Shown: piece by piece, positions 1-41,286 of the stretch
Layout: each line of letters begins with the position of its first letter
Numbering within the stretch: the first letter of the stretch is position 1
From: Puniceicoccaceae bacterium Marseille-Q1082
Lineage (GTDB): Bacteria > Verrucomicrobiota > Verrucomicrobiia > Opitutales > Intestinicryptomonadaceae
Assembly: GCA_904424815.1 (NCBI GenBank)
Contig: CAJGBI010000001.1
Coordinates: 1,507,671 to 1,571,670, forward strand
Length of the DNA stretch: 64,000 nucleotides
Direction of reading: 5' to 3'
Notes under the pieces: model-generated
What the model was told of the DNA's origin: nothing
Database searches by the model: none
What the model saw: the letters and a program-made list of their open reading frames with translations, nothing else
Program-made: the position numbers and the translations under genes

Positions 1-688
1 AGTCTTCATATCTTTCGTGGATATTAAAATCCATTGTCAGCAGATTCATCATAGCGTCTGCAAACTTTGCTTCATCTTCCGATATATAAACTACTTCGCA
101 CGTATCGGCTTTTAATTCCGCGAGCATTTCAAGTCTGCCTATGCCATTTATAACCTTTCCGTCGGGTGTGCAAACGATAGGCATGATAATTCCAGCCTTG
201 CGCAGAGTTCTTGCAATGCTCTTTGCATATTGAATCCACCTCCCGGAATTTATTTTGCAAAGTTTAGCTACAGACACCTTGCAAGGGTAAGCGCAACGGA
301 AGAACTCTTTGCTTTCCAACTCCTTATCTGGAATACTATTGGCGAGTTCCGAAAGATTTAGAGTTTCCAGTATGCGCTTAGCCTTTAAAGGTGTTTGGCA
401 AATATCTCCGTCATTTGTAGCCCGATTAAATACGATGTTCAAAGCTTTGCGCTTTTGTAATTCCATTGCGGGAATTCTAAAGACGGGCACATTCTTTAAT
501 CCCATTCGAGTTGCTACAAAATGCCTCTGGTGCCCTGAGAGAATTTCTCCGTTTGCGTCGGCGTAGATAGGTGCTATAAATCCCAGCTTCCTAAGTGAAA
601 GTTCTATTAAATCGAGACGCTTTGGATCCGCCGTTCTCGGATTGTAGGTTGACGGATTTACCGCCGAAAGTGGCTCAATTTTTATCAT
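1..688 (-). CDS. ParB/Srx-fold nuclease-like protein with two ParB domains (partial, runs off left edge)
   Basis: This is an open minus-strand frame from an ATG at 688 to the window edge, about 229 codons with no stop. Two ParB N-terminal-like motifs are visible: GEILSGHQRHFVA about 50 residues in, and GKVINGIGRLEMLAEL near residue 185. ParB/Srx-fold proteins of this kind in phages bind DNA or act as nuclease-like partners of methyltransferases; they are not necessarily partition proteins. Its start overlaps the stop of the upstream ParB-like gene in an ATGA arrangement, so the two are probably translationally coupled. The role is inferred from the family only. Confidence 0.75.
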   Translation of the reverse strand, partial: MIKIEPLSAVNPSTYNPRTADPKRLDLIELSLRKLGFIAPIYADANGEILSGHQRHFVATRMGLKNVPVFRIPAMELQKRKALNIVFNRATNDGDICQTPLKAKRILETLNLSELANSIPDKELESKEFFRCAYPCKVSVAKLCKINSGRWIQYAKSIARTLRKAGIIMPIVCTPDGKVINGIGRLEMLAELKADTCEVVYISEDEAKFADAMMNLLTMDFNIHERYED

Positions 689-1326
689 ATCGCAAGTCTC
701 CTACGGATTTCAGCGATTACCGCTTCCTTGTCGAAGCCTACTTCCTGCTTGAGCTTGTCTATCCAAATGCCGAAGTCTTCCTGCGACATTCTGAAGCGGT
801 AGTTTCCCGCCTGAATCGTTACTTCCGACTGCGACAGCTCCTTTTCCTTTTCGTCCCCAAAATCGGGCTTTTGTTCGCCCAAAAGGGCGTCAAGGTCTGT
901 CGGCTCAAAGCCCGCAAGAATTGTGTCGAAATCGCTTGCCTTAAAGCCGTCAATAATGTCCTGCAATCCGTTTAAATCGAGCGATGAAAGCTCCGCCAAT
1001 CGGTTGTCTCCCACGAGAACGGCAAGCTCGTTGTCCTCGGAAGCGAAATTCTGGTATTCCACGGGAACGATTGAAACGCCAAGCTCTTTGGCGGCTTCAA
1101 GGCGTCCATGCCCCGCCACAATATAACCGCTTAGCTTTGAAACTACAATCGGGTGCCGCCAACCGTGATAACGTATGTTCTGCGCAAGGATTTTAATCTG
1201 ATTCTGCGGGTGCGTATTCGGATTTTTCGGGTGCGGGATAAGTTCTTCAACTTTTACGAGCTTATCGTATGCGCACCATACTTCAATTCCGTCCGCTAAA
1301 ATTCGTGCCTTATTTTCGTCTGCCAT
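685..1326 (-). CDS. ParB-like N-terminal domain protein (phage type)
   Basis: A 213-residue protein. Residues 25-115 carry a ParB N-terminal fold: VEELIPHPKNPNTHP, then NIRYHGWRHPIVVS, the GYIVAGHGRLEAAKELG core and a VLVGDNRLAELS segment. The C-terminal 90 residues are acidic, then amphipathic, and I do not recognise them. Stand-alone ParB domains like this are frequent in phage packaging and modification regions. The stop overlaps the start of a second ParB-domain gene by four bases, so both lie in one leftward operon. Whether it binds a specific site or is catalytic cannot be told from sequence. Confidence 0.8.
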   Translation of the reverse strand: MADENKARILADGIEVWCAYDKLVKVEELIPHPKNPNTHPQNQIKILAQNIRYHGWRHPIVVSKLSGYIVAGHGRLEAAKELGVSIVPVEYQNFASEDNELAVLVGDNRLAELSSLDLNGLQDIIDGFKASDFDTILAGFEPTDLDALLGEQKPDFGDEKEKELSQSEVTIQAGNYRFRMSQEDFGIWIDKLKQEVGFDKEAVIAEIRRRLAI

Positions 1327-1351
1327 ATAGACAGACTATTTTGTCAAAATC

Positions 1352-1774
1352 CTATATTGAAATTCTGTTGCCGAAATCGTCTATCGCGGGAGCCGATTTT
1401 ATCCCATACTTGGCGTACATAGCTCTGGTTTGGGGATTGCTTTCTATTGCGAAAAATTGTTCGGGATTATTTCCGTGTTTTGGAAATATTCGCCATTTCA
1501 GTATCCACTCCTTTTTTATGTGAGGCAAATGCCTAAAGATAGAAAAAAAGCTCTCATTGGGCAGCCAATTCGTCTTAGTGTATATTCGATTTAGGGTAAA
1601 TATCTCGTATTTTTGCATTCGTGCCGTAGTGAGAATCACATATTTACCTTTTAACATATCAATCAGCCATTGGCGGTAGGTCTCAAGCTCTATTTGAAGT
1701 TCCATAGGACGAATTCTTGGTGCGTCCTTTTCCTTGTCCACGAGCGTATAATTTAGGTCAAGCAGGTATATCAT
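1352..1774 (-). CDS. HAD-superfamily-like hydrolase of phage type
   Basis: A 140-residue protein. The N-terminus YLLDLNYTLVD matches HAD motif I, although the usual DxDxT is DxNxT here, which could alter phosphatase activity. VILTTAR near residue 48 fits motif II, and a late AIDDFGNR resembles the acidic motif IV. Short HAD-like proteins of this size occur in phage genomes as nucleotide phosphatases or polynucleotide kinase-phosphatase remnants. It abuts the next upstream gene by one base, so it belongs to the same leftward operon. The substrate is unknown. Confidence 0.6.
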   Translation of the reverse strand: MIYLLDLNYTLVDKEKDAPRIRPMELQIELETYRQWLIDMLKGKYVILTTARMQKYEIFTLNRIYTKTNWLPNESFFSIFRHLPHIKKEWILKWRIFPKHGNNPEQFFAIESNPQTRAMYAKYGIKSAPAIDDFGNRISI

Positions 1775-2124
1775 TAGAAATCTCCCAGTCTGCGTTTTAC
1801 TCCGTTTACTCCTTGGGGCTTATTTGGATTATGCTTATAGGAGTTTATCTTTGCATATGTAGGGCTTATAGTCGGCGTCTCCTTATGGGAGCATATATCG
1901 CCTTCGGTTATCGGTTTCTTGTTTATTAGGGCATCAACTATCTCCCTTAAAACCTCTATCGGGATTTCCGTCACTGTGTAAATTAAGCCATAGAGGTTCT
2001 GGCGGCCTACCTTCTCCCTTAGAAGTTTCATTGCCGCCGAACGCGAAACGCATTGAAACCTACCTTCGTAAATTACCTTGTCTCTGCTTGTACAGAGTAT
2101 GTGGTAGAATTTATTAGTAGGCAT
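1774..2124 (-). CDS. Hypothetical phage-region protein
   Basis: About 116 residues and not recognised. The ATG at 2124 is preferred over the GTG two codons upstream because a strong AAGGAGG lies seven bases before it. The N-terminal half (residues 5-75) looks like a compact alpha/beta domain; the C-terminal 40 residues are polar and likely flexible. The start overlaps the end of the preceding gene, and the end touches the HAD-like gene, so it is part of a tightly packed leftward operon. No function is proposed. Confidence 0.55.
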   Translation of the reverse strand: MPTNKFYHILCTSRDKVIYEGRFQCVSRSAAMKLLREKVGRQNLYGLIYTVTEIPIEVLREIVDALINKKPITEGDICSHKETPTISPTYAKINSYKHNPNKPQGVNGVKRRLGDF

Positions 2125-2671
2125 ATTCACCCCTCCTTATGCGCTTATTCCATACTCTCATAGCCGAACTTATCGAGCTATAAGCTTTTCCGCCTTGGCG
2201 TTCTGGATTTGTATCCTCAAGAACCTTCTTCACAAATTCCGAATCTCCCATTTTCTCAAGCAATCCTGCGGTAAACGGTTCCGTCTTCATTTGCTCCACA
2301 AGTTGCGCTATCCACCTCGATTTTCGGGTGCCTATGGCCATTTCTTCATCCCCCATTGCAACATTGCTCTCGGTCGGCTTATCGACTTTAGGCTCGTTAT
2401 CAATATGTTTAGTCTCAGCTATTACAACAGTATCTCCGTTTTCAGTCTTTCCTGTTATTGCCTTTGTATCCGAAGCGGAGAGCTTGTTTAAAACTTCCGA
2501 GTCTATTTTGATTTTATTATTAGGTCTATCACTCCCCAAAGTCCCGTCCTTTTTTAAACGGTGTAGGAGACTGTATCCATCGCCTTTTTCAACGATTGAC
2601 CAATCGCCCACAGCTTTGGCGGGTAATTTGTATTGTTTAACCTGTTCTTCTGTTATTGTTATAGTTTTCAT
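2114..2671 (-). CDS. Hypothetical phage-region protein, acidic-lysine rich
   Basis: About 185 residues from an internal ATG at 2671 (MKTITITEEQVKQYKLP). A longer frame to 2809 exists, but its extra 46 codons are very AT-rich, run through the probable promoter region and look non-coding. The N-terminal 50 residues look folded. The middle (about 85-125) is acidic and disordered. The C-terminal 60 residues (SRWIAQLVEQMKTEPF through VWNKRIRRGEYAY) are helical and basic, compatible with DNA or virion binding. It is probably the first gene of the leftward operon that ends with the ParB-like genes. Not recognised. Confidence 0.55.
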   Translation of the reverse strand: MKTITITEEQVKQYKLPAKAVGDWSIVEKGDGYSLLHRLKKDGTLGSDRPNNKIKIDSEVLNKLSASDTKAITGKTENGDTVVIAETKHIDNEPKVDKPTESNVAMGDEEMAIGTRKSRWIAQLVEQMKTEPFTAGLLEKMGDSEFVKKVLEDTNPERQGGKAYSSISSAMRVWNKRIRRGEYAY

Positions 2672-2990
2672 TTTTTCTTTTATTTTTGGTTTTCCTATGT
2701 TGTTTATATTACCATAGTTCAATAAAATCTGCAACATTTTATTAGGTTTTTTTTCGTTTTTATTATTCAAAAATATTACGATTTTTCTTGCATTTTTTTG
2801 TACCGACACCTCGCAAAAAATAGCCCAATGCGGCTTCTTGCAATAGTTTGGAAATGTCAGTTCTCGGAGGCGTTTTGCGGATAAAATTCAAGATTATTTT
2901 TTATCTTTTTTTCATGAAAAACCGAATAAAAACATTGCAAATATTATACAAGTATGTTAATATCAATGATATAGAAGGACGAGAAAGACG
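2672..2990. promoter_or_regulatory. AT-rich divergent intergenic region
   Basis: About 320 bases separate a leftward from a rightward gene. On the plus strand, TTGCAA near 2935 followed by TATGTTAATAT near 2953 is a plausible promoter, and the downstream gene has AAGGACGAG before its ATG. On the minus strand, TTGAAC with a downstream ATAATAAA-like box near 2705 could serve the leftward operon. No operator or RNA gene was recognised. Confidence 0.35.
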
Positions 2991-3197
2991 ATGACAAAAA
3001 AAGAAGCAAAGAAACTAACTGATACGAAAACCAAATGTGATTTCATCAGAGGCGTAAATGACGCTCTCGAAGGAATCTATGATAAGTTCTACCGCTACAA
3101 CCGTTCTGATGAGGGACGCGAATATGACCACGGAATAAGGTGGGCGATAGATAATATTTCGGACGTCGAAATAAATACTTTTATCGAAAATAAGTAA
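2991..3197 (+). CDS. Small hypothetical protein
   Basis: A 68-residue charged, alpha-helical protein with an AAGGACGAG ribosome-binding site upstream of the ATG. It is the first gene of a short rightward operon with the DUF2786 protein and a small conserved mobile-element protein. No motif is recognised. The codon spacing and the close fit with the following gene (11 bases) support it being real. Confidence 0.5.
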   Translation: MTKKEAKKLTDTKTKCDFIRGVNDALEGIYDKFYRYNRSDEGREYDHGIRWAIDNISDVEINTFIENK

Positions 3198-3208
3198 TAA
3201 CCAATAAG

Positions 3209-3964
3209 ATGAACACTGAAAAATCAATCCTAAAGCGAATACAAAAGCTTCTAACTCTCTCCAAGGATAAGGGAGCAAGTAAGGCGGAAGCCGAAAGAGC
3301 AATGGAAATGGCTCAACGGCTTATGACAAAATACAATATCACTATGGCGAATATCGAAAACGATACTCCCGCATCAAAGATAAAACACGAATACTTCTTC
3401 TCAAGGGCGGTTCTCAATCCTGCCGACACGGAAATAACCGCAATACTTTGCAGGTTTTACAAGGTGAAAATCTTATATAACGGAAATTCTGGAATGGTGG
3501 TTATTGGGACTTCCGAAAATATTGAAATCGCAAAATACGTCCACGGCTATCTAAGAAACGTATTCTTCAAATGTTGGAATGAATTCAAACGAAGTGCGAA
3601 TGAGATTTCGGCGCAAGCCGAAAGACCCGAAGGGCGAGACGGTGCGAAGCACGCGAGTCAATTCAAAAATACCTGCTTTAGGCCAAACAAGGCGGATTAC
3701 TACTTCGGGCTTAGGTGCGGAATATACGAGCGAATGGAGCAAGCCGAAAAAGATACGCTTTCTGGAGAGGGGGAAGAATCCCGCCAAAACTATGAACTGG
3801 CCTTATCAAACAATGAACATGAGCTGGAGGTTTATATCAAAAACACTTTCAGAGTGATAGGAGAATCACGGAGAAGGCAGAGTACGAGAATGGACGCAAC
3901 ATCTTACCGTGCGGGGAGAGAGAAAGGAGCAACACTTCAAATTAACCAAGCAATAAAGGCATAG
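3209..3964 (+). CDS. DUF2786-family protein carrying an in-frame 26-codon insert
   Basis: 251 residues. The N-terminal region (ILKRIQKLLTLSKDKGASKAEAERAMEMAQRLMTKYNI) is the DUF2786 signature. That family is common in phages and integrative elements and its function is unestablished. The C-terminal half (YYFGLRCGIYERME) fits the usual second half of these proteins. Between them, codons from 3582 to 3659 are a copy of the structured repeat also found inside the tRNA-like gene at 6513-6594. The insert is exactly 78 nt, has no stop codon, and its removal gives a continuous CWNEFKNTCFRPNKADYY. Whether the extra 26 residues (rich in R, E, G and A) are tolerated as a surface loop is unknown. Confidence 0.75.
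   Translation: MNTEKSILKRIQKLLTLSKDKGASKAEAERAMEMAQRLMTKYNITMANIENDTPASKIKHEYFFSRAVLNPADTEITAILCRFYKVKILYNGNSGMVVIGTSENIEIAKYVHGYLRNVFFKCWNEFKRSANEISAQAERPEGRDGAKHASQFKNTCFRPNKADYYFGLRCGIYERMEQAEKDTLSGEGEESRQNYELALSNNEHELEVYIKNTFRVIGESRRRQSTRMDATSYRAGREKGATLQINQAIKA
3582..3659 (+). repeat. Palindromic structured insertion element, copy 1 (in a protein-coding gene)
   Basis: 78 nt starting AATTCAAAC and ending GCGAGTC, inserted after ATG and before AA. Three hairpins are visible in order: TTTCGGC/GCCGAAA closed by a GCAA tetraloop, CCC-GAA-GGG, and GTGC-GAA-GCAC. The segment GCGAATGAGATTT and the segment AAAGACCCGAAGGG followed by CGAGACG are shared with copy 2. The length is a multiple of three, so the host frame is kept. 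It resembles Rickettsia palindromic elements in behaviour, not in sequence as far as I can tell. Confidence 0.8.
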
Positions 3965-3965
3965 T

Positions 3966-4253
3966 ATGGAAACAATAATAGAAAGCAAATTCGACTTCGG
4001 GCGGGTAGTTGCAACCACGACGCTTGCGAACTATTGCGAAAAGAAGGGATTTTCAATGCTTCCTTATCTTATCCGCCACGCAAATGGAGATTGGGGTGAC
4101 GTATGCAAGGAAGACTGGAAGAGCAATGACGAGCCTCTCAAAAACGGCTTAAGGTTGCTCTCCGAATACAAACTCCCAGATGATAGGAGAATTTGGATAA
4201 TAACCGAGTGGGACAGAAGCGCAACCACTTTGCTTTTTCCAGAGGACTACTAA
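3966..4253 (+). CDS. Small conserved mobile-element protein of unknown function
   Basis: 95 residues. The pattern GxVVAT...ANY..., LIRHANGDWGDVCKEDWKSNDEPLKNG, then a LLSEYKL and IWIITEWDRSATTLLFPEDY ending matches a small family often annotated only as a plasmid-related or hypothetical protein. It begins two bases after the DUF2786 stop, so they are probably co-translated. The biochemical role is not known; its family context is plasmids, ICEs and prophages. Confidence 0.6.
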   Translation: METIIESKFDFGRVVATTTLANYCEKKGFSMLPYLIRHANGDWGDVCKEDWKSNDEPLKNGLRLLSEYKLPDDRRIWIITEWDRSATTLLFPEDY

Positions 4254-4305
4254 TAGTCTTGAAAATAATCACCATACTCTTACTATAAGACATCATTAAA
4301 TTAAA

Positions 4306-4851
4306 ATGAGCAAGATTGATGACATAAGCTTGGTAAAAGCACATAACTTGTTTGAGTCTGGGGACATTGCCAAATGCGAAATTGGCACATTAAAGGGCTT
4401 GCAACAAATCCATAAATACATTTTCGACGGGCTTTACGATTTCGCGGGAGAGATTCGCACAAAGAATATATCAAAAGGGAACTTCCGATTTGCAAATTTC
4501 ATATATCTACCTGAAGCACTCGCTAAAATCGAAAAAATGCCAGAATCTACATACGAAGAAATCATTGCAAAGTATGTAGAAATGAACGTTGCGCACCCTT
4601 TTATGGAAGGCAATGGACGTTCCACCAGAATTTGGTTAGACATGATTCTCAAAAAGAATTTAGGTAAGGTCGTAAATTGGCAAAATGTAGATAAAGATCT
4701 ATATTTGCAGGCAATGGAACGTAGCCCTGTAAACGACTTGGAACTAAGATTTTTGCTAAAGGAAAACTTGACGAGCGATGTCGATAACATAGAAGTAATT
4801 TTTAAGGGTATTGAACAATCCTACTATTACGAAGGATACGAAAAGAAATAG
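4306..4851 (+). CDS. fic: Class III Fic/DOC protein adenylyltransferase with C-terminal autoinhibitory motif
   Basis: 181 residues, typical for a minimal Fic protein. The catalytic loop [12 protein letters not shown] (about residue 97) has the full HPFx(D/E)GNGR signature. Upstream, [14 protein letters not shown] and [18 protein letters not shown] match the conserved Fic core and flap. The C-terminus has [10 protein letters not shown], which fits the (S/T)xxxE(G/N) inhibitory helix of class III (NmFic-like) enzymes, so no separate antitoxin is needed and none is seen. Family members attach AMP to target proteins such as gyrase. It probably has its own promoter (TTGAAA near 4259, TATAAG near 4284). 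Its likely role here is prophage-borne toxin or host-takeover factor (inference). Confidence 0.88.
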
Positions 4852-4852
4852 T

Positions 4853-5545
4853 TTAATCTTCAATATCCACAGGCTCCTTTATCGAGTCTGCGGCGATAGA
4901 GATTGCCTTGTAAGTCTCGTCGAGTACCTCCTGCAATTTCTCCCGAATTTGTATGGCATCGAGGGTTGTAAGAATTGGCGGAAGCTCGTTTAAAAATCTG
5001 CTTTCCAAGATTTGCCGTACTTGTCCTATATGGGCAGTCCATACTTCGCGAACCTTCTCAATGGCAACATACGTTCCTTCCATTACCTTGAGTTTAATTT
5101 CCGCTTGCTTTACCTCCGCCAATAGCTTGCGGGTTTTTAACTCCTCATCTTCGGGAGAGTCTGGCTCTTTTAAGTCGTGCTTCCTTACAAAATCCCGCCA
5201 CTTTGCCACATTGTGCTTGCCGTTAGAACAGGGTTTGGGAGAGCCTTTTAACTTTCGCATGCGCACTATTGTTTTGCGGCTAACGCCTAAAATCTCCGAA
5301 AGCTCTACGATAGTTTTTGCGAATTTAACGTCTCCACTTGTGCCATAGGCTTTCTCAACCAAGCTTCTCTCCGCACTTGTGAGAGTTTTGCCAGCAGCCA
5401 CTTTTTTTACTATGTTTTCAAGGTCTTTGCTTAATATTTTCTGTCCTATGTTTTCGTTCACAAAAAAAGGGACATCTGTCAAATGTCCCAATAATGTCGC
5501 ACTTCGTTTTCTGCCTGTAAATCCCGATAACTTAAGCGGATTCAA
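4853..5545 (-). CDS. Nu1-like terminase small subunit
   Basis: 230 residues. The centre (about 75-125) has a helix-turn-helix (IVELSEILGVSRKTIVRMRKLKGSP), followed by a KPC-NGKHNVAKWRDFVRKHD wing-like segment. A long C-terminal helix-rich part begins EELKTRKLLAEVKQAEIKLKVMEGTYV and contains REVWTAHIGQVRQILESR. This order (DNA-binding module, then 'LL..VKQAE..LKV.EG..V.IE.VRE') is typical of lambda Nu1-like small terminases that recognise the packaging site. The large terminase is not in view and may lie left of the window. It converges on fic with one base between them. Confidence 0.6.
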   Translation of the reverse strand: MNPLKLSGFTGRKRSATLLGHLTDVPFFVNENIGQKILSKDLENIVKKVAAGKTLTSAERSLVEKAYGTSGDVKFAKTIVELSEILGVSRKTIVRMRKLKGSPKPCSNGKHNVAKWRDFVRKHDLKEPDSPEDEELKTRKLLAEVKQAEIKLKVMEGTYVAIEKVREVWTAHIGQVRQILESRFLNELPPILTTLDAIQIREKLQEVLDETYKAISIAADSIKEPVDIED

Positions 5546-5570
5546 GGCGATAGGCTAAAGTAAAATGGGA

Positions 5571-5650
5571 CATTTCAAAAAATCCATTTGCAAGAAGAAA
5601 CGGGTCTGCCGAACGTCCCTGCTGTATATCAGCGTTTAATAGATTCCTTA
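5571..5650. repeat. Dispersed repeat family B, copy 1
   Basis: About 80 bp shared with 16419-16499 in the same orientation. A 28-base identical core begins AAGAAGAAACGGGTCTGCCG and is followed by a less conserved hairpin-forming stretch and then TTAATAGATTCCTTA, which is identical in both copies. The 3' end of the adjacent membrane-protein gene (last codons ESIKR) lies inside it. The nature is unknown: end of a mobile element, recombination site or small RNA are all possible. Confidence 0.7.
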
Positions 5651-6438
5651 AAATTAATTTTTTTTAGACCTGTAGTGCTGTCATAACACAATCTACTTTC
5701 TTCTCTAATGTTCTTAACATCAGAAGCTATGTAATATCCAATTGAAGTTTTATTTTCAACATAATCATATTCATACAATGGAATTATATTCCTTCCACTT
5801 GCTGTTTGATATGGTGTTATAACCACCTTATCTTCCGATAAAAATATTGTTTGTGTAGGATAATTCTTAAGCAAGAAGATTTTCAAAGTTCCTTTTTTTT
5901 GGCTTTTTTCATATGTAGATATTAAAAGGTTTATAGATGATATAATTTTGTCTTTTATTACTTCATATTCGGAATTAACTTTTTGGGATAAAATACGACA
6001 AAAATCACTATTGGGATTTACAAGAAAAAATTCTGTTTCGCTATTTCTATTAAATCTTAATTCCAATTCTTTTGAATTATTCCCTATCCAACGAAGTCCA
6101 TCATTCATTACTACGGAAAAAGAATCAGACTTCTCTATCATGTTTGTATAGTTATAATTCTTTGAATCGGTAATAATTTCATTTAAACCAGAATCATGTA
6201 CAGAATAAGATAATCTAAAAAGTTTTATCAGATTACGTTCTTCGTCTGATTTTAAAAATAAATTATAGATTATGGTGATAGTTGCAGTAACAATCAAAGT
6301 GTTGGCTATATTTCCACATGCAAAATACCAAAAACTGTTTGTATCTTCAATTTTCGTCTGACAAAGCAAAAGGAACAGTCCCAACGTAACTGCCAGTATA
6401 AAATATATCGTTTGACCTTTTTTCATTCCCCAATTCAC
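5629..6438 (-). CDS. Two-helix membrane protein with a cytoplasmic domain resembling DUF5919-type effectors
   Basis: 269 residues. Two N-terminal hydrophobic segments (about 10-28 and 38-60) precede a soluble domain. That domain contains ETEFFLVNPNSDFCRIL, a helical linker and LKIFLLKNYPTQTIFLSEDKVVITPYQ. This arrangement resembles the PLD-like, often non-catalytic domain found in some membrane-attached anti-phage effectors; the assignment is an inference from pattern memory, not a demonstrated match. Base composition is very AT-rich. It stands alone between a terminase gene and a tRNA-like gene, a typical location for prophage cargo (morons). The last five codons fall in repeat family B. Confidence 0.5.
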   Translation of the reverse strand: MNWGMKKGQTIYFILAVTLGLFLLLCQTKIEDTNSFWYFACGNIANTLIVTATITIIYNLFLKSDEERNLIKLFRLSYSVHDSGLNEIITDSKNYNYTNMIEKSDSFSVVMNDGLRWIGNNSKELELRFNRNSETEFFLVNPNSDFCRILSQKVNSEYEVIKDKIISSINLLISTYEKSQKKGTLKIFLLKNYPTQTIFLSEDKVVITPYQTASGRNIIPLYEYDYVENKTSIGYYIASDVKNIREESRLCYDSTTGLKKINFKESIKR

Positions 6439-6472
6439 TCATAAAAAGTTTAGATATTCAACTTTTTTTTGC

Positions 6473-6626
6473 GAGTAGGGGGCGGAATCGAACCGCCAAT
6501 CTCAAGGTTATGAATTCAAGCAAAGCGCGAATGAGATTTTGCCAAAGGCAAAAGACCCGAAGGGCGAGACGCTTTGCGTATGCAAAGGCGAGTCAACCTT
6601 GTGTCTTACCGTTAGACCACCCTGCA
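6473..6626 (-). tRNA. tRNA-Met(CAU)-like gene interrupted in the anticodon loop by an 82-nt element
   Basis: Read on the minus strand: TGCAGGG acceptor side, T8, D-arm GTCT-loop-AGAC with GG in the loop, anticodon stem CAAGG/CCTTG, variable AGATT, T-arm GGCGG-TTCGATT-CCGCC and CCCTACT. Removing 6513-6594 gives the loop TTCATAA with anticodon CAT, a perfect 7-base tRNA-Met loop on a perfect 5-bp stem. The acceptor stem has two mismatches of seven pairs and no CCA is encoded, so the gene could be decaying or diverged. A prophage origin is likely. Function would require removal of the insert at DNA or RNA level. Confidence 0.65.
6513..6594 (+). repeat. Palindromic structured insertion element, copy 2 (inside tRNA-Met-like gene)
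   Basis: 82 nt starting AATTCAAGC and ending GCGAGTC, inserted after ATG and before AA (plus strand). Hairpins: TTTTGCC/GGCAAAA, CCC-GAA-GGG, and CTTTGC-GTAT-GCAAAG; GCAAAGCG near the start can also pair with CGCTTTGC. Relative to copy 1, hairpin 1 differs at two pairs (T-A to C-G, C-G to G-C) with pairing kept, and hairpin 3 differs in sequence but still pairs, which is covariation. Orientation is antisense to the tRNA, whereas copy 1 is sense to its host gene. Confidence 0.8.
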
Positions 6627-6767
6627 AAAGCATCAGTTCTCGCCGAACTTATCCCTCTTGAGTTGCGAAAGCTCTTGGTAGATTCTGACTATTGCAGATA
6701 AGTCCAAGAGCAGTATATCGACAGTAGTTGCACTCATATCTTCAAGCGGGAACTTTTCCTTAAAACC

Positions 6768-7316
6768 CTAATACCATTTCACGAAACCGTCTATGTACTT
6801 GACGTGTTCTATGGTGTAGCTTTCAGGTACTTTCTCCTCCTTGAGTTCAGGTTCTTTGCGAGGAGGAAGAATGCCAGTTGCGATATAGGCGTCCTTGAGA
6901 GTCTTTGCAGGGAGTTTTTCAATAAAGTTATCTGCGTCATTTTTAGACGGTTCTTCATTTGAAGAACTTGAATCTTCGTTTCCCGACGTCTCGAAATTTG
7001 CCACTGGTGGCAAATTTGAGTCTTGGGTTGAAAGTTTTGCAACAGACTCAAAAAGCTTTATGTAACGATAAGAGGTTCTCTGTGAAAAATCGCAATTATT
7101 CTCTACCCACGGAAGCCAGTCTCCGTGATTCATTTTTGATTTCTGTTCCACCAAAAGCCTGCCACACTCAATGGCAACCTTGATTGCTTCCTGCGCCTTA
7201 TCTTTGGCAAGCTTCGAGAGTGCTTCGGCCTTCTCGTGGAGTGCGTTAATTCTCGAAGCTATGTCGAGTTCAGTTGAAGATGTTTCGGTAGCGGAGATTG
7301 TGTTTTCGTTTTCCAT
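6768..7316 (-). CDS. DUF3102-family phage protein
   Basis: About 182 residues from ATG 7316 (MENENTISATE). The longer frame to 7424 would overlap the neighbouring HTH gene, and GGGTGA precedes the chosen start. The central part (AIECGRLLVEQKSKMNHGDWLPWVENNCDFSQRTSYRYIKLFE) is the DUF3102 signature: a helical module followed by a winged-helix-like 'FSxRTAxRYMxL' element, seen in many phage and plasmid proteins and probably DNA-binding. The C-terminal 90 residues are acidic, Ser-rich and then Pro/Glu-rich, likely disordered. It is the last gene of the leftward replication operon. Confidence 0.7.
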   Translation of the reverse strand: MENENTISATETSSTELDIASRINALHEKAEALSKLAKDKAQEAIKVAIECGRLLVEQKSKMNHGDWLPWVENNCDFSQRTSYRYIKLFESVAKLSTQDSNLPPVANFETSGNEDSSSSNEEPSKNDADNFIEKLPAKTLKDAYIATGILPPRKEPELKEEKVPESYTIEHVKYIDGFVKWY

Positions 7317-7321
7317 ACCAA

Positions 7322-7603
7322 TCACCCGCTTGTCAAATTGCGCAATCTCGACTTTCGGTATGATTGGCATGCCGACGGTGACTTCATCGTTGATGTTGTG
7401 CGTAGCCCAAGAAATTTCTGCCAAGACTTAACGCGAGCCGATATAGCCGCCCTTGTTACGCCATACTTCTTGGCAAGTTCTGTCTGGCTCTTTACGCCGA
7501 GCATTTGCTCCATGCCAAGCGTCATCATCAAGGTGTCTATCTCAAGGCGACGTATTCCCTCGTTTTTTGCCCCTTGTAGGCGTTCAAACACCCAACGCAA
7601 CAT
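7322..7603 (-). CDS. Small helix-turn-helix protein
   Basis: 93 residues. KSQTELAKKYGVTRAAISARVKSWQKFLGL (about 38-67) is a clear helix-turn-helix of the sigma-70 region 4 or Xre type. The start is uncertain: the first ATG overlaps the upstream gene by 67 bases, and MMTLGMEQ at about 7528 would avoid that. It lies six bases before the DUF3102 gene. Proteins of this type often pair with phage replication genes as small regulators. No target site is evident, although the GGGATA boxes at 7920-8101 are near. Confidence 0.55.
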   Translation of the reverse strand: MLRWVFERLQGAKNEGIRRLEIDTLMMTLGMEQMLGVKSQTELAKKYGVTRAAISARVKSWQKFLGLRTTSTMKSPSACQSYRKSRLRNLTSG

Positions 7604-20987: not shown

Positions 20988-21055
20988 ACATCTTCGTAAA
21001 ATGAACAAAGAAGTCTATTTTGAATAATAGAAACCCAGAACGAAGGCGGCGTATC

Positions 21056-23962
21056 ATGAACAAGAAAACATATTTTGCGGCATTGGCTTTGGCTGCGGGG
21101 CTTGGCTCATTGCTCCGTGCAGACAACGAGAATTTCACCTACGGCGAGCTTAGCGGGCGCGACTTCTCCAACCAGTCGCTTAAAAACAGCACATGGACCC
21201 ACGCCGACCTTTCAAACGTGTCTTTTGCGGGGGCGAATCTCGACGGGGCGAATTTTGAAGACGCAAGTCTAAACGGCACCGACTTTACAGACGCCATTAT
21301 CACAAACATGTATTGGGGAGCCAGCTTCACCAGGAATCAGCTATACTCCACCGCAAGCTATAAAAATAAGGATTTAAGCGGGCTTAAGCTGGAGTATTAC
21401 AAGTTTAACAACAATCTCGATCTTTCCGGACAAAACCTAAACGGGGCGAGTTTCAGAAACTGCACTCTCGGAATGGTCGATTTTACGGACGCGTGGATAA
21501 ACAATGTGAACTTCTACTCTGCAAAGAGCTTTTCGGCCGAGCAGCTGTACTCCACCGCAAGCTATAAAAATAAGGATCTAAGCGGAATAAATTTTCGCTT
21601 CGTCGACGTGAAGAACTGGAATTTTTCGGGTCAAAATTTAAGCGGGGTAGACTTTTTCAGAAAGGATTTTACCGGCGTAGATTTTACGGATTCAATAATA
21701 ACAAACACCGATTTAAGCGGCAGCAATCTCACCTTCGACCAGCTAAAATCCACGGCGAGCTACAAGAACAAGGATTTGAGCGGCGCAAGCTTTTCGTCGG
21801 TGGACTTGGCGGGTTTCGACTTTTCGGACCAGATAATAAAAAACGTGTCTTTTGGCAATGCAAAGAATCTCACAGCAAGCCAGATTGCAAGCACGGCAAG
21901 CTACAAAAATAAGGATTTAAGCGGCGTAGATTTTGAGGGCTTGGATTTGACGGGGCTCGACTTTAGCGGCCAGATTATCAAAAACGCCTCCTTTTGTAAT
22001 TCCAATTATTCCTCGGGAGTCGCCGCGGTCATCACCGAGGAGCAGCTGTATTCGACAAAAAGCTATGCGGTGGACAAAGATTTAAGCGGCGTAGATTTTA
22101 CAAGGAGCACTGTGAGCGGATGGAGCTTTGCCGGGCAAAATTTGGAAGGCGCAAATTTCTACTACGGCGATGTCGCCGAGGCGGACTTTACGGGAGCGAC
22201 GATTAAAAACGTCAGTTTTGAGAGTGTCAAAAACTTTACCAAAGAGCAGCTGTATTCAACCAAAAGCTATGCGGTGGACAAGGATTTAAGCGGCATAAAT
22301 TTCACCTACTTTAACGTTATTGGGTGGGATTTTACCGGCCAGAGTTTGGACGGAGTGGACTTCTACTACTCGGATGTCAAGGGGGCGAACTTTGAGGACG
22401 CCGTCATTACAAACGCCATCATGACTGATGCAAAAAACTTTACCGCCGAGCAGCTGAAAAGCACGGCAAGCTACAAGAACAAGGATTTGCACGGGGTAAG
22501 GCTCAGCACGAATATTGAAAACTTGGATTTTTCGGATGCGAATCTTAGAGGCTCATATTTGAAATTAGACGGCGAAAACTTAAATTTCAAAGGGGCGGAT
22601 TTGACGGACAGCACCTTGGTGGACGGAGGCCGCGTTGACAATGCGGACTTTAGCGGCGCGACATTAAAGAACGTCCTAATAAACGGTGTCACGCTTAGAA
22701 ATGCAAAGGTCGAGGGGGCTGATTTTACCGAAGCGAGATTTCTTTCGGGTTCGTTTAGCTTTATCGGGTTCACCGAGGATCAGTTTCGCTCGACAATGAC
22801 CTATAGAATGCGCTTCATTCGCGGGTCGAGATTTTCCAGCATGGATATGTCGGGGTGGGATTTCTCAAACTTTACCTTTATGGACGACTTGACTAATGAT
22901 CCGGAATTTTCGAGCGTGAATTTGTCGGGCGCCAATTTCAGCGGCTCCAACATGCTAAATCTCGGATTCTATTATTCAGACCTGACAAATGCGGATTTTT
23001 CAAACACAACGGCCACCGAAACCGTCCAGTTCTACTATTCGGATTTGACGGGCGCAAATTTTACCGACGCCGTATTGGACTACGTCAATTTTTACGGTCT
23101 CCAAAGCATTTCCGCCGAGCAGTTTTACTCCACGGCAACCTATAAAAACAAGACAAAGGCCAATATCAATTTCACGGATATGGACATGAGCGGGTGGGAT
23201 TTGTCGGGTTTGAGCTTTGGGAAAGGCAACTTCGAGAACACCAATTTGAAAGGGGCGAATTTCATGAACACAAAAATCGATGAATATTCGTCTTCGTTCA
23301 GCGGCAACAACGACTTTACCGCGGCGGATTTCCGCGGCAGCAACATGACTTTGGATAGGTTTAAAAGCACCGATACGCTCAAAAACACGATAATGACCGA
23401 CGGCACGATACAAAACTTTTCCATGGCATCCGCCGAAGACAGCTTCTCGATACGCGAGTATGTCCTGCTGGAGGGCGGAGAAGTTATTTCTGCAAAGATA
23501 GCCCAAAGCGCCTCTATCTCCGGCGGAGCCGATTTGACGCTTGAAACGGGCGCCTACCTTGAGGTAGTTGACGGCGCAGTACTCACAGTGGAAGACGGTT
23601 CCGCGATAACAATAAACACCGACGGTTCCACAATTTTTGAAGTCGGCGAAAACTCCGGACTTGTGTTTGCAGACGGCTCTGTTTTGAAAGTAAACTTAGA
23701 GGGAGTTTTCACGGAGCCCGAGGAATATTCCTTCGCATTCATAAACGCGAATGACAGCTCCACCATAAGCGGGCTTGATGAGCTTATGGGAGGAGAGAAT
23801 TTCCTTCTCTCGCTAAACGGCGAGCTGTTCGACGGAGAATGGGACTATTATATGGAAGGCAATAGCTTTGGGATACGCATGCAGGTTCCAGAACCTGCCA
23901 CTTATGCGGCGATTTTCGGGGCTTTGGCGCTTGCATTTGCTGTATGCCGCAGAAGAAAGTAG
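21056..23962 (+). CDS. Pentapeptide-repeat protein with PEP-CTERM sorting tail, paralogue 1
   Basis: 968 residues from ATG 21056 (GAAGGCGGC upstream; an earlier in-frame ATG at 21020 gives an implausible Arg-rich start). Signal peptide MNKKTYFAALALAAGLGSLLRA. Residues 25-770 are pentapeptide repeats A(D/N)F/L-type, arranged in larger units of about 65-70 residues, each with an EQLYSTASYKNKDLSG segment. Residues 780-930 form a beta-rich domain (ISGGADLTLETGAYLEV). The C-terminus VPEPATYAAIFGALALAF plus a CRRRK tail is a PEP-CTERM-type exosortase signal, so it is probably exported and surface-attached or released into extracellular matrix. First of three tandem paralogues. Confidence 0.88.
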   Translation: MNKKTYFAALALAAGLGSLLRADNENFTYGELSGRDFSNQSLKNSTWTHADLSNVSFAGANLDGANFEDASLNGTDFTDAIITNMYWGASFTRNQLYSTASYKNKDLSGLKLEYYKFNNNLDLSGQNLNGASFRNCTLGMVDFTDAWINNVNFYSAKSFSAEQLYSTASYKNKDLSGINFRFVDVKNWNFSGQNLSGVDFFRKDFTGVDFTDSIITNTDLSGSNLTFDQLKSTASYKNKDLSGASFSSVDLAGFDFSDQIIKNVSFGNAKNLTASQIASTASYKNKDLSGVDFEGLDLTGLDFSGQIIKNASFCNSNYSSGVAAVITEEQLYSTKSYAVDKDLSGVDFTRSTVSGWSFAGQNLEGANFYYGDVAEADFTGATIKNVSFESVKNFTKEQLYSTKSYAVDKDLSGINFTYFNVIGWDFTGQSLDGVDFYYSDVKGANFEDAVITNAIMTDAKNFTAEQLKSTASYKNKDLHGVRLSTNIENLDFSDANLRGSYLKLDGENLNFKGADLTDSTLVDGGRVDNADFSGATLKNVLINGVTLRNAKVEGADFTEARFLSGSFSFIGFTEDQFRSTMTYRMRFIRGSRFSSMDMSGWDFSNFTFMDDLTNDPEFSSVNLSGANFSGSNMLNLGFYYSDLTNADFSNTTATETVQFYYSDLTGANFTDAVLDYVNFYGLQSISAEQFYSTATYKNKTKANINFTDMDMSGWDLSGLSFGKGNFENTNLKGANFMNTKIDEYSSSFSGNNDFTAADFRGSNMTLDRFKSTDTLKNTIMTDGTIQNFSMASAEDSFSIREYVLLEGGEVISAKIAQSASISGGADLTLETGAYLEVVDGAVLTVEDGSAITINTDGSTIFEVGENSGLVFADGSVLKVNLEGVFTEPEEYSFAFINANDSSTISGLDELMGGENFLLSLNGELFDGEWDYYMEGNSFGIRMQVPEPATYAAIFGALALAFAVCRRRK

Positions 23963-23989
23963 AGCGCAAGGTTGCAGGCAATTTTCTTG

Positions 23990-24020
23990 GAGCTTTCCGA
24001 ATCGGGAAGCTCTTTTTTTT
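23990..24020 (+). terminator. Intrinsic terminator after pentapeptide gene 1
   Basis: GAGCTTTCCGA pairs with TCGGGAAGCTC, followed by eight T's. Bases 24021-24330 show no gene or other feature. Confidence 0.8.
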
Positions 24021-24334
24021 GCCGTTTATTTAGTTAAACGGGCGCATGGCAAAATTTCCCGCAGCTATTGTGCGGTATAGGGCAGGAATTCGGATTTTGC
24101 CAAGGTGCGGATTTTTCTATGCAGTTGCAAAATGAATCGCTATTGCGGACTGTTGTTTTGTGGGGAGAGATAATTGGCTTTTTTTACGTCAAAAGGCTTT
24201 GGAGGTTAAAGATGTTTGCAGCTTTTATTGCAATGCGGCAAGGCGTTGCGCCCGTTTGTTATGGATGTCCGGACAAACTTTAGCCGCCAGGCCGCGGAAA
24301 TCAAAACAAAATCATACTAGCGTAAAAAAACATC

Positions 24335-24365
24335 TTGACATTATTATACAACCGTAATAAAAGGT
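24335..24365 (+). promoter_or_regulatory. Promoter of pentapeptide gene 2 with dyad operator candidate
   Basis: TTGACA at 24335 is followed directly by a perfect dyad TTATTA-TACAACCG-TAATAA (24341-24360) lying between the -35 and the start point. The sequence around it (ATACAACCGTAATAAAAG) is nearly the same before gene 3. Confidence 0.55.
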
Positions 24366-24427
24366 CCTCATAAAACATGCAGAAAGTTTTTTTGAAAGTG
24401 TAAACAACCGGAGAAAGGCGGCATGCC

Positions 24428-26356
24428 ATGAACAAAACCAGTACACGCGCTATGAACAAGTTTATTAAATTATCGTTTCTCGCCTCTAATGCTCTTATTT
24501 TAAGCCTTCCGCTGCTCGCAGCTGAAAATTCTTACGACAGACAGAACGTAAGCGATAGGGATTTTAGCGGAACCCCGCACGCCAACTCCAGCTGGATAGG
24601 CTGCACTGCAATAAATACGGTATTTTCAAGCTCCAGAAACCCCACGGACTACACAAATTCAAATTTCGCCTCGGCAAATCTGACCAATGCTTCTTTCATC
24701 GACGCCACGCTTTCGGGCGCCAATTTCACAAACGCCAACCTCAACTACGTCTCTTTCGTCGACGCCTTGCTCGATGGTGCCAATTTCACAAACAGCATAA
24801 TTACAAACACCAATATGGGAAAGGTCGTAGTGCGCGGCTTTACGAAAGAGCAGCTCTACAGCACTGCAAGCTACAAAAATAGGGATTTAACGGGAATATG
24901 GCTGGCCAATAACAATCTGAAGGATTGGAATTTTTCGGGGCAAAACCTCACCAACGCCTACTTCCACCTTGCCGACCTTATGGGCGTCGATTTTACGAAC
25001 AGCATCATAACAGGCGCCTACATTGGACATAGCGATAACTTCACGAAGGAGCAGCTCTACAGCACGGCAAGCTACAAAAACAAGGATTTGACGGGAGTTC
25101 AATTTGACGATCTCAAGATGAACGGCTGGAATTTCGCGGGGCAAAATCTTACCAACGTTTCGTTCAGCGGCACGTCATTGTCGAATGCCGATTTTACGGA
25201 CAGCATCATTACCGGTGCCTCGCTATACTTCGCAACGGACAGAGGCTTCAAGAAAGAGCAGTTCTACAGCACGTTAAGCTACAAAAATAAGGATCTGACG
25301 GGTGTGGACCTGGGCGACAACGATCTGGCAGGTTGGAATTTCGCGGGGCAAAATCTCACAAATGTTTCTTTTTACGCATCGGATCTCACGGATACCAACC
25401 TTACGGACAGCATCATAACAGGCGCCTCCTTCTGGAGGGCCTCCGCCACCTTGACCGAGCATCAGTTCTACAGCACGCTAAGCTACAAGAATAAAAGCTT
25501 GGTGGGGTTAAACATGAAAAACAATACTTTGGACGGCTGGGATTTTTCGGGGCAAAATCTCGCAAGTACCACCTTTGAAAGGGCAAATTTAGTCACAGCT
25601 AATTTTTCGGGCGCAAATCTCACCAACGTCAATTTCGCCTACGCCGATCTTAGCGGCGCCAATTTTGCGGGTGCGATATTTAACAATACCACGCTCACGG
25701 GCGTCGATATTACGAATACGGACTTCCGCGGCGCAAACATAGAATCAATCGTCGGAACACCCACGTACAAAAATACGATATGGTCCGACGGCACAATACA
25801 AAACTTTACAATGAAATCCTCCAGCGACAGCTTTTCAATTAGCAAGTATGTTCCGCTTTCGGGCGGGGAGTCTATTTCCGCAAAGATTACCCAAGACGCA
25901 TCCATATCAAGCAGAGCCCAGCTTACTCTTGAAACCGGAGCGGAATTGGAGGTAACTAACAATGCAACGCTTACAGTTTCAAACGGCTCTTCAATTATAA
26001 TAAACATGGATCCCGAAGGTTCGACAAGTTTTGCCGTAGCATCTGGTTCGGGTTTAACATTTGAAAAAGGCGCAATCCTGAAAGTAAATATTGAGAAGGC
26101 TTTTAGGTCTTCAGATTTGCAAATATTTACAATTATGAGCTGGAATGAAAATTCCCTCATAAGCGGCCTTAACGATTTTATAATAGACGAAACTTTATTC
26201 CTTTCTGTAAACGGCGAAGTATACGAAGGAGATTGGAATTATTTCATAGAAAATAACAATTTTATAATAAGCATGCAGGTTCCCGAGCCCGCCGTCTGTG
26301 CCGCAATATTGGGAGCATTGGCTATCGCCTTCGCGGCGCTACGCAGAAGAAAATAG
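24428..26356 (+). CDS. Pentapeptide-repeat protein with PEP-CTERM sorting tail, paralogue 2
   Basis: 642 residues. Signal peptide within the first 35 residues (KLSFLASNALILSLPLLAA). About six long units of pentapeptide repeat follow, with the same linker as paralogue 1 (EQLYSTASYKNKDLTG) and the repeated phrases FTDSIITGA and WNFAGQNLTNVSF. A beta-rich region (about 470-610) precedes the tail VPEPAVCAAILGALAIAF with RRRK. Ribosome-binding site GAGAAAGGCGG. Probably a quadrilateral beta-helix rod exported through the exosortase route. Adhesion, matrix or structural roles are possible, and nothing in the sequence decides between them. Confidence 0.87.
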   Translation: MNKTSTRAMNKFIKLSFLASNALILSLPLLAAENSYDRQNVSDRDFSGTPHANSSWIGCTAINTVFSSSRNPTDYTNSNFASANLTNASFIDATLSGANFTNANLNYVSFVDALLDGANFTNSIITNTNMGKVVVRGFTKEQLYSTASYKNRDLTGIWLANNNLKDWNFSGQNLTNAYFHLADLMGVDFTNSIITGAYIGHSDNFTKEQLYSTASYKNKDLTGVQFDDLKMNGWNFAGQNLTNVSFSGTSLSNADFTDSIITGASLYFATDRGFKKEQFYSTLSYKNKDLTGVDLGDNDLAGWNFAGQNLTNVSFYASDLTDTNLTDSIITGASFWRASATLTEHQFYSTLSYKNKSLVGLNMKNNTLDGWDFSGQNLASTTFERANLVTANFSGANLTNVNFAYADLSGANFAGAIFNNTTLTGVDITNTDFRGANIESIVGTPTYKNTIWSDGTIQNFTMKSSSDSFSISKYVPLSGGESISAKITQDASISSRAQLTLETGAELEVTNNATLTVSNGSSIIINMDPEGSTSFAVASGSGLTFEKGAILKVNIEKAFRSSDLQIFTIMSWNENSLISGLNDFIIDETLFLSVNGEVYEGDWNYFIENNNFIISMQVPEPAVCAAILGALAIAFAALRRRK

Positions 26357-26447
26357 CGCATTGGCATAGGCAGTTTCTCGGGGCTTTCCGAATCAGTTTT
26401 AACTTCGTCCGCGAAAACTTTTATATTGATGCAGGCAGTTGCTTGGA

Positions 26448-26477
26448 GAGCTTCCCGAATCGGGAAGCTCATTTTCT
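26448..26477 (+). terminator. Intrinsic terminator after pentapeptide gene 2
   Basis: Perfect GAGCTTCCCGA/TCGGGAAGCTC hairpin followed by ATTTTCTTT. A partial copy of the same hairpin's left arm (GGCTTTCCGAATC near 26380) precedes it, suggesting duplication of the terminator region. Confidence 0.7.
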
Positions 26478-26573
26478 TTGCCAGTTCATTCGGTTGCCTT
26501 GACGCGCGGCAAAAATTTCCCGCCCGATTCCCGCGGCAGCGGAAATGCAATTACACGTGCGTATAAAAATTTG

Positions 26574-26605
26574 TTGACATTTATTATACAAACGTAATAA
26601 AAGAT
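26574..26605 (+). promoter_or_regulatory. Promoter of pentapeptide gene 3 with dyad operator candidate
   Basis: TTGACA at 26574, then TTATTA-TACAAACG-TAATAA (26581-26600) and AAAG. An additional ACACGTGCGTATAAAA box sits just upstream at about 26553, again shared with gene 1. Confidence 0.55.
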
Positions 26606-26651
26606 TGGCGGAAAAATGAGGAAAATCTTTTTAAATGTAAGGCGACATACC

Positions 26652-36265: not shown

Positions 36266-37858
36266 ATGCTGCAAAGTCTGATCGATCTGGCCTGCGACAC
36301 AGGTTTTCTGTACGTCGACTGGCGAATGATAGTAATGTGGGGCGTCGTCGCGGTGCTGATGTATCTGGCGGTGTTCAAGGAATTCGAGCCGCTGCTGCTC
36401 GTGCCGATAGCGTTCGGCGCTCTGTTGGCGAACCTTCCGACCGAAGGCGTGCTCAACAAGCCCGCCGGAGCTCTGATCGCGCCCGCCGAGGGCACGGCGA
36501 CAACCGTATTCGTCTCCGAAGGCGACAAGGTGTTCGTTCCGCGCGTGGTAAAGCACCTGCCAAAGTCCGTCTCGGAAATGATAAGAAACGCCGACGCCAC
36601 CCAAGCCGAAGCGCAAAAGGACGTCGAAGGATACTTCAAGTTCCTTGAAGACGTCACCAGCTCCGCGAGCCGCGAAGACACCCTTAAAAAGGCAAAGGGC
36701 ATTCCGGATCTCGTGGCGATAGTCCGCCCGGACACCGCCCAGTCCGATACCGACAAGGAAGCGGCGGAAGCTTCCATGGCGTTTAAAGTCGCCTTTAAAG
36801 GAAAACAGGTAGACCTGCGGGGCTCCGACCTTCTCGTGTTCGCGCAGGCCTCCGGAGACGTCACCGACGTAATGGTAAAGGCGGGCGAGCGCGTCGCCAA
36901 CGGGCAGAAGCTCGTAGACGTGTACAGCGCGCGCACGGGCGGCCTTTATTACTATCTGCAAATGGGCGTACTGCTCGAAATCTTCCCGCCGCTCATCTTC
37001 CTCGGCGTCGGGGCCCTCACCGACTTCGGCCCGCTCATCGCCCGCCCGAAAACCCTCCTTCTGGGCGGCGCGGCGCAGTTCGGCGTGTTCGCGACCTTCA
37101 TCGGAGCCGTTTGGCTCGGCTTCACCTCGCAGGAGGCCGCCTCAATCGGCATCATCGGCGGCGCGGACGGCCCGACCTCCATATTCATCACCAACAAGCT
37201 CGCGCCCCATCTGCTCGCGCCGATTGCGGTTGCGGCGTACAGCTACATGGCGCTCGTGCCGATAATCCAGCCGCCCATCATGCGCGCGCTAACGACGGAA
37301 GCCGAGCGCAAAATCCGCATGAAGAGCCTCCGCAAGGTTTCGCGCCTCGAAAAGCTGATATTTGCGCTAATCGTCACGATATTCTGCATACTGCTCGTCC
37401 CGGACGTATCGGCGCTCGTTGCGATGCTCATGCTCGGCAACTTCCTGCGCGAATGCGGCGTCTGCGAGCGCCTCAGCAAGGCGGCGCAGAACGAGCTCAT
37501 CAACGTTGTGACAATCTTCCTCGGAACTTCGGTGGGCATAACGATGACTGGCGACAGGTTCCTGCGCGTGGACACGCTCTCCATTCTCTCGCTCGGGGTG
37601 GTCGCATTCGGATTCTCGACCGCGGCGGGCGTTGTGATGGCGAAAATCATGAACCTATTCGGCGGCGACAAGGTGAACCCGCTCATAGGATCTGCGGGCG
37701 TCTCGGCCGTCCCGATGGCCGCGCGCGTATCGCAGGTGGAAGGGCAAAAGGCCGATCCCACGAACTATCTGCTCATGCACGCAATGGGCCCGAACGTCGC
37801 CGGCGTTATAGGCACGGCGCTCGTTGCCGGATACTTTATCGCAACTATAGGAAACTAA
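36266..37858 (+). CDS. oadB: Na+-translocating decarboxylase beta subunit (OadB-like) with inserted domain, orphan copy
   Basis: 530 residues, versus about 375-430 for usual OadB. The N-terminal helix and [22 protein letters not shown] (40-61), then the membrane domain from [35 protein letters not shown] onward, are canonical, including [10 protein letters not shown] and NLFGG...[17 protein letters not shown]. Residues about 63-222 are an insert with two half-motifs of biotinyl/lipoyl-like barrels (EGTATTVFVSEGDKV and [25 protein letters not shown]) separated by a helical part. A second, full complex is at 49.5-54.2 kb; this copy has no alpha or biotin subunit beside it and may share those in trans. 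Confidence 0.85.
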   Translation: MLQSLIDLACDTGFLYVDWRMIVMWGVVAVLMYLAVFKEFEPLLLVPIAFGALLANLPTEGVLNKPAGALIAPAEGTATTVFVSEGDKVFVPRVVKHLPKSVSEMIRNADATQAEAQKDVEGYFKFLEDVTSSASREDTLKKAKGIPDLVAIVRPDTAQSDTDKEAAEASMAFKVAFKGKQVDLRGSDLLVFAQASGDVTDVMVKAGERVANGQKLVDVYSARTGGLYYYLQMGVLLEIFPPLIFLGVGALTDFGPLIARPKTLLLGGAAQFGVFATFIGAVWLGFTSQEAASIGIIGGADGPTSIFITNKLAPHLLAPIAVAAYSYMALVPIIQPPIMRALTTEAERKIRMKSLRKVSRLEKLIFALIVTIFCILLVPDVSALVAMLMLGNFLRECGVCERLSKAAQNELINVVTIFLGTSVGITMTGDRFLRVDTLSILSLGVVAFGFSTAAGVVMAKIMNLFGGDKVNPLIGSAGVSAVPMAARVSQVEGQKADPTNYLLMHAMGPNVAGVIGTALVAGYFIATIGN

Positions 37859-37879
37859 TAGTTCAAAAGGCAATAGCGA

Positions 37880-41253: not shown

Positions 41254-41286
41254 ACAAAAAAACGAACCTCCCATGGGAGGTTCGTT
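41254..41286 (-). terminator. Palindromic terminator in repeat unit 1 (minus direction)
   Basis: AACGAACCTCCC pairs perfectly with GGGAGGTTCGTT (26 bp palindrome), and on the minus strand is followed by seven T's. It would stop transcription coming from the right. Confidence 0.7.

Follow-up and report, generated by a model that had tools for sequence, protein, structure and literature searches.

A palindromic element of Opitutales interrupting a prophage tRNA-Met(CAT) gene at the anticodon loop

A prophage of Puniceicoccaceae bacterium Marseille-Q1082 carries a tRNA-Met(CAT) gene whose anticodon loop is interrupted by 82 nt that belong to a repeat family of Opitutales. The favoured reading, to which we give a probability of roughly three quarters, is that a palindromic element resembling the Rickettsia palindromic elements (RPEs) struck a dispensable tRNA of the prophage, thereby disabling it. 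The insert represents a small palindromic element of Opitutales, mobile but non-autonomous, that acts like the RPEs. To judge from the flanks, this element seems to target TT/AATT-like sites with a short duplication, the same site often being reused. One insertion landed in the anticodon loop of the tRNA gene, and the interrupted gene is now carried by three prophages or phage-like regions of mosaic build within the genus. A single tRNA insertion is the simplest reading because, among the matches whose sequence was read, the only element copies sitting in a tRNA are those of three homologous tRNA copies. The features found in the window, i.e. the whole stretch of 64,000 nt that was analysed, are collected in Table 1.

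Table 1. Coordinates of the interrupted tRNA gene, the element and neighbouring features in the window
Feature	Position	Strand	Basis
Prophage tRNA-Met(CAT) gene, anticodon loop interrupted	6473..6626	-	Rfam RF00005, 40.4 bits; ARAGORN with introns
82-nt insert, copy of the palindromic element	6514..6595	-	ARAGORN i(32,82); R1 match, 108.9 bits
Hairpin 1 of the element, variable, compensated among copies	6566..6594	-	A1 columns 3-31
Hairpin 2 of the element (CCCTTCGGG)	6555..6565	-	A1 columns 32-44
Hairpin 3 of the element	6537..6553	-	A1 columns 46-63
Hairpin 4 of the element	6514..6532	-	A1 columns 68-116
Second element copy, antisense to the gene interrupted in frame	3582..3661	-	R1 match G000:C1:1511252-1511331
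DUF2786/DUF7168 prophage gene (phrog_421), open frame through the element	3209..3964	+	phrog_421
DUF3102 prophage gene, upstream of the tRNA	6768..7424	-	Context
Terminase small subunit-like gene, downstream of the tRNA	4853..5545	-	phrog_57; context

The interrupted tRNA gene and its prophage setting

As the initial annotation had described, the two strands of an anticodon stem (CAAGG/CCTTG) are divided by 82 nt on the minus strand, within a cloverleaf read from 6626 to 6473. The tRNA identity of the locus is borne out by the Rfam model RF00005, whose match covers model positions 1-71 with the extra bases falling in the anticodon loop (cut-off 29 bits; E values of 4.4e-5 over the window and 4.4e-7 genome-wide). 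The interrupted tRNA is absent from the output of a default ARAGORN scan of the window. With introns allowed, the program calls tRNA-Met(cat) i(32,82) for this gene and for two further copies described below, and it calls tRNA-Met(cat) for all three once the insert is deleted. The 82 nt lie between U33 and the anticodon. As either end has a TT, three placements of the insert are equivalent (6513-6594, 6514-6595 or 6515-6596), and each, read from the sequence, leaves the canonical loop TTCATAA that had been foreseen. None of the three copies has an uninterrupted 7-nt anticodon loop, each containing 82 extra nt. The two acceptor-stem mismatches noticed at first are real in the window copy (1-72 T.T and 3-70 C.A); CGCA stands where an encoded CCA end would be, and the gene folded together with its insert does not adopt the cloverleaf at minimum energy. 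Promoter and terminator scans at the locus gave sites not above chance. Known self-splicing introns and ribozymes were rejected as candidates, tRNA being the sole Rfam match at E ≤ 1 over positions 6400-6700; in the same search, the conserved core of a group I or group II intron was not recognised.

A second interrupted copy, hereafter copy A, is found in another prophage of the same genome (G000, C1:968838). It was missed by the Rfam search of the genome, which is not fully sensitive, and recovered by a separate scan; all of its tRNA pairs are standard and it scores 46.7 bits with RF00005. A third copy, with an identical insert, occurs in another species of the genus (G009), the same 300 bases being present in CALXLK010000001.1 ('uncultured Opitutales bacterium'). 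The three copies differ at 8 of 158 positions, none of them in the 82-nt insert, one before it and seven in the last 19. Read from the sequence, the G009 copy has T-stem mismatches and a 1-72 mismatch, so that pairs are broken in two of the three copies, those of the window and of G009. The 3' ends of these two would pair with other 5' strands and look as if they were pieces of other tRNAs.

The window tRNA lies within a 36,657-base viral contig of IMG/VR (UViG_2914150438_000003), the fetched stretches of which are 100% identical to window positions 209-6961. It is placed between replication genes (primase, helicase, resolvase) and the terminase small subunit gene. The two prophages of the genome are mosaics: the sole aligned piece around the tRNA spans 163 nt, little beyond the tRNA itself, and alignment resumes 2.6 kb before it and 0.8 kb behind. 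Homology between the window and G009 stops just behind the tRNA block. From such a pattern it may be imagined that the block is retained as a recombination point of mosaic phages rather than for any tRNA function, the insert being a passenger. The homology limits with both the second prophage and G009, the clustering of seven of the eight variable sites in the last 19 of the 158 positions, and the 3' ends of the window and G009 copies, which would fit other 5' strands and seem to come from other tRNAs, are all consistent with this idea. However, it leaves the element family unexplained, and the tRNA sits between replication and packaging genes; we regard it as unlikely.

Three further CAT tRNAs are carried by the host, two identified by ARAGORN (L006, L020) and one read from the sequence at C2:760343. 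Apart from the first base, copy A has the same acceptor stem as the latter tRNA. As the C2:760343 tRNA looks like an initiator tRNA from its sequence, the prophage tRNA may be initiator-like too. No empty version of the prophage tRNA was found among the genomes and phage records searched. The insert-less tRNA as a query gave matches in 37 of 372 genomes, in a genome search that is not fully sensitive; apart from the interrupted copies, these are partial only, and those that were read (L058-L060, L063, L065, L078) are other CAT tRNAs. Among phages, the same query retrieved five distant records, one of which (H2) was read as tRNA-Met. Two tRNA patterns gave 0 matches in viral contigs, and the interrupted tRNA had no match among named phages.

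Other features were observed in the window. Three large, repeat-rich open frames at 21020-28622 end with VPEPA...RRRK, which we take to resemble PEP-CTERM signals. An inverted repeat of 1104 nt (84%; 36758-37861 and 49530-50633), with arms 11.7 kb apart, has two shorter arm pairs next to it, and a direct repeat of 300 nt, 92% identical and spaced by 450 nt start to start, occupies 41039-41788.

Structure and distribution of the element family

The element is a unit of about 80 nt made of four consecutive hairpins and forms a repeat family of Opitutales. Of seven copies that were aligned, six measure 80-84 nt and one 116 nt. Linkers are fixed among copies; stems vary yet remain paired. In a covariation test on seven sequences, whose structure was derived from these same sequences with hairpin 1 partly misaligned, paired cells amount to 99.0% versus 94.0 after shuffling, double-changed cells to 12 versus 3.9, and pairs with a double change to 6 versus 3.3, a value of 6 being reached in 6 of 500 shuffles. 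Further pair types number 8 versus 9.9, i.e. fewer than in the shuffled sets.

An exact core pattern recovers five copies in the own genome and three in 2 of the 18 other genomes of the family. In the genome_contigs collection, from which records near the window were possibly excluded, it is found at only three loci of two Opitutales/Verrucomicrobiota genomes, and among viral contigs only in the two prophages of the own genome. The initial annotation had proposed a covariance-model search with 'the two copies', probably the tRNA insert and its relative at 3582-3661. Such a model, R1, built here from seven copies, detects a dispersed element family, with at least 33 matches spread over 11 of the 372 genomes of the order, these counts being lower bounds since at most 12 candidates were scored per genome and the own genome reached 12. 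The window insert is itself one of the seven founding copies of R1. Positive genomes comprise 9 of the 19 in the family and two of another family, f21, whose copies have the same linkers and hairpins with different stems. Weak R1 matches (e.g. G003:C15, G006, G007) are, judging by sequence, looser relatives.

Some copies are intergenic and some form tandems; others interrupt genes, in either orientation and mostly, though not always, in frame. One head-to-tail array, read as a whole, comprises 9.1 units of 79 nt with 99% matches (L133 1241-1960; G000:C1:87740-88459). Looser palindromic repeats (CTCGCTCGCAC...GTCTCGCCCTTCGGG) were observed at L119 (G003), L114, L123 and L126 (G006), L109 (G004) and L068 (G007), that of L109 adjoining a tRNA-like sequence. 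Two diverged element copies, L067 and L073 (G012:C34), face each other about 0.9 kb apart.

Insertions in protein genes and repeated filling of sites

In the window itself, the copy in the DUF2786 gene adds 26 residues, in frame, relative to an empty viral relative (L181, 47% identical); the protein has no match among named phages. A copy in a tyrosine recombinase gene (PF00589) is shared by two genera (G009 and G005) and adds 27 residues, also in frame; the G005 stretch is cut and scores 25 bits with PF00589, under the cut-off of 27.1. With one locus per genome (L149-L161), this site is filled in 2 of 13 family loci, the other 11 showing a 27-residue gap; a further fragment, L168, does not reach the insertion site. 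A third in-frame copy, close to the end of a gene for a DDE-type transposase (rve_3) in genome G129, accounts for 75 net nt or 25 residues and is missing from the other transposase copies whose end was read. In G017, the element lies, in the other orientation, within an open fragment that matches ISL3 transposases on either side of it. Two further loci of this genome share the junction, giving three (L055, L117, L124) with divergent element copies at the same point of ISL3-type transposase sequence. From this analysis, most gene copies appear to behave like translated inserts of the RPE type, not all of them.

Indeed, a mid-gene site of the same G129 transposase is empty in three of five copies and holds exactly 77 nt in the other two, where the frame is broken; one of these inserts contains a stop codon. 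The element is therefore able to break genes. Both 77-nt elements (L112 811-887 and L122) are inserted at the identical base. Between them, 9 of 77 positions differ, a divergence close to that of the gene (40 and 36 of 300). Synonymous codon changes outnumber the others in both parts of the broken transposases (29 to 8 in the N half, 30 to 4 in the C half). In trees of the five copies, with weak support, the two filled ones are not grouped. Either two recent insertions struck this site, or the genes persisted with the insert.

Identical sites are filled repeatedly by element copies. At the recombinase site, the elements are identical at 82 of 85 positions (96.5%) between genera (L071, G009:C10:32374-32456; L057, G005:C407:2965-3047), versus 132 of 200 and 128 of 193 positions (66%) in the flanks, a sequence pattern for which homing or gene conversion is possible. 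For the tRNA with its insert, 3 of 158 positions differ overall between the window and G009 and none of the first 143, a span picked after the differences had been seen. Upstream, the differences number 6 in 60, 14 in 150, 27 in 300 and 34 in 600 positions, giving uncorrected Fisher p values against the first 143 positions of 6e-4, 9e-5, 2e-5 and 1e-3, respectively. For the insert alone, the corresponding uncorrected values are 0.005, 0.003, 0.002 and 0.03. Homing or conversion of the element to the same sites may be the cause, or its sequence may be constrained.

Fate of the interrupted tRNA and relation to known systems

In the RNA, the 82 nt part U33 from the anticodon, so that the tRNA is most likely unable to decode, the gene being a pseudogene or becoming one. 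Loss of the prophage tRNA would be tolerated because the host has its own CAT tRNAs. Two kinds of RNA ligase, RtcB and PF09414, were searched for in the host genome (96.15% complete), and neither was found. The initial annotation had also drawn on the acceptor-stem mismatches as an argument for inactivation. This point weighs less, because copy A has none, than the insert itself and the missing RtcB and PF09414, on which inactivation mainly rests. Several observations run counter to a pseudogene. The tRNA body of copy A is perfect. The 0 of 143 differences against 27 of 300 upstream are not predicted for a drifting pseudogene; recent recombination or gene conversion could be the source of this conservation. 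Finally, the broken transposases keep both halves with mostly synonymous differences; their RNA or protein could be mended, or the insertions could merely be recent.

These counterpoints lead to another view, in which the insert is a new kind of small removable sequence. The 82 nt would leave the RNA through self-cleavage or through host nucleases acting at the hairpins, the halves would be rejoined and the tRNA would work. More generally, a homing-like mobile palindrome would be removed at the RNA level, the prophage tRNA and the interrupted transposases still functioning. Removal restores a canonical loop, every tRNA pair is kept in copy A, the 5' part of the tRNA and the insert are unusually conserved between species, and the homology of the two prophages is confined here to the 163-nt block. 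To this may be added the frame-breaking 77-nt transposase copies, one with a stop codon, in which both halves stay open and differ mostly by synonymous changes, and the refilling of the same sites, reminiscent of homing introns. Against it, Rfam recognises nothing besides the tRNA, RtcB and PF09414, the ligases searched for, were not found in the host, and pairs are broken in two of the three tRNA copies. Moreover, copies at three sites with empty relatives are in frame, and keeping the frame would be needless if the element were removed. As the filled transposases are ungrouped in their poorly supported trees, recent separate insertions are possible. We therefore hold both the removal of the 82 nt and its extension to a homing-like element to be quite unlikely. 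Of the two alternatives offered at the outset, the mobile palindromic repeat in a prophage tRNA stands, whereas the small self-removing element has found no direct evidence. To our knowledge, no small bacterial tRNA intron outside groups I and II was known previously; if true, an RNA-removable element would be the first.

A last scheme would have the RNA cut and not rejoined. RNase III cuts the hairpins of 23S rRNA intervening sequences, and a nuclease cleaving those of the element would produce a nicked tRNA-like decoy serving the phage. The element has hairpins and the tRNA body is partly conserved; phage tRNAs and defence are a published topic, as parts of two articles indicate (PMC10264068; PMC11555353). 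Yet promoter-like sites are not above chance and the tRNA body is damaged in two copies; the scheme is very improbable.

RPEs are among the described systems closest to the element. In the sections consulted of two articles, RPEs are described as 105-146 bp long, interrupting 19 protein genes in frame and also two RNA genes, those of tmRNA and M1 RNA (PMC2229807), their insertions affecting intergenic regions, functional RNAs and genes whose frames are kept (PMC4316617). In both families, a short palindrome is found between genes, in frame within protein genes and within structural RNA genes (PMC2229807, in part). For the Opitutales element, this likeness is carried by dispersed copies with compensating changes, by in-frame inserts facing empty homologues at three sites and by the structural RNA gene. 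It concerns structure and behaviour, the two families being set side by side by description. In contrast, the Opitutales element is shorter (80-84 nt in six of seven copies, one having 116, against the 105-146 bp of RPEs in the same portion of PMC2229807), has four consecutive hairpins, belongs to another phylum and includes some frame-breaking copies. The tRNA anticodon loop as a target is not mentioned for RPEs in that portion (PMC2229807).

YPAL/RU-2 and MITE-like repeats share a non-autonomous nature, internal inverted repeats and co-translated copies, according to the same partial source (PMC2229807), and differ in sequence, size and host. YPAL targets adjoin dyad symmetry and are duplicated, as also stated there (PMC2229807); the anticodon arm would fit likewise. 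A transposon with ends matching the element was not found in a search confined to Y1. REP/RAYT elements are small palindromic repeats with tandem clusters as well; however, Opitutales copies lie inside genes, and PF01797 is lacking in the 19 family genomes searched. A REP system driven by a Y1 transposase was accordingly rejected (Y1_Tnp, PF01797, in 0 of 19 family genomes at E ≤ 0.001). Introns of tRNA genes, either bacterial group I or archaeal and eukaryotic, also bring extra sequence into the anticodon loop. The Opitutales insert differs from them by its 82 nt, by the lack of an intron family match and by its location between positions 33 and 34; the canonical site of protein-spliced tRNA introns is separated from the anticodon by one base on its 3' side (PMC4090602). 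In the literature searched, which comprises few subscription papers, neither a tRNA anticodon loop nor Opitutales was found reported to house an element of this kind.

With the present data, a gene-invading palindrome system resembling that of RPEs is now seen in Verrucomicrobiota and their prophages. It offers clean empty sites, in-frame as well as frame-breaking copies, a tandem array and multiply filled sites. Thereby, the question of how such elements move becomes testable, and the copies in the tRNA and in the transposases are natural tests of exit of the element at the RNA level.
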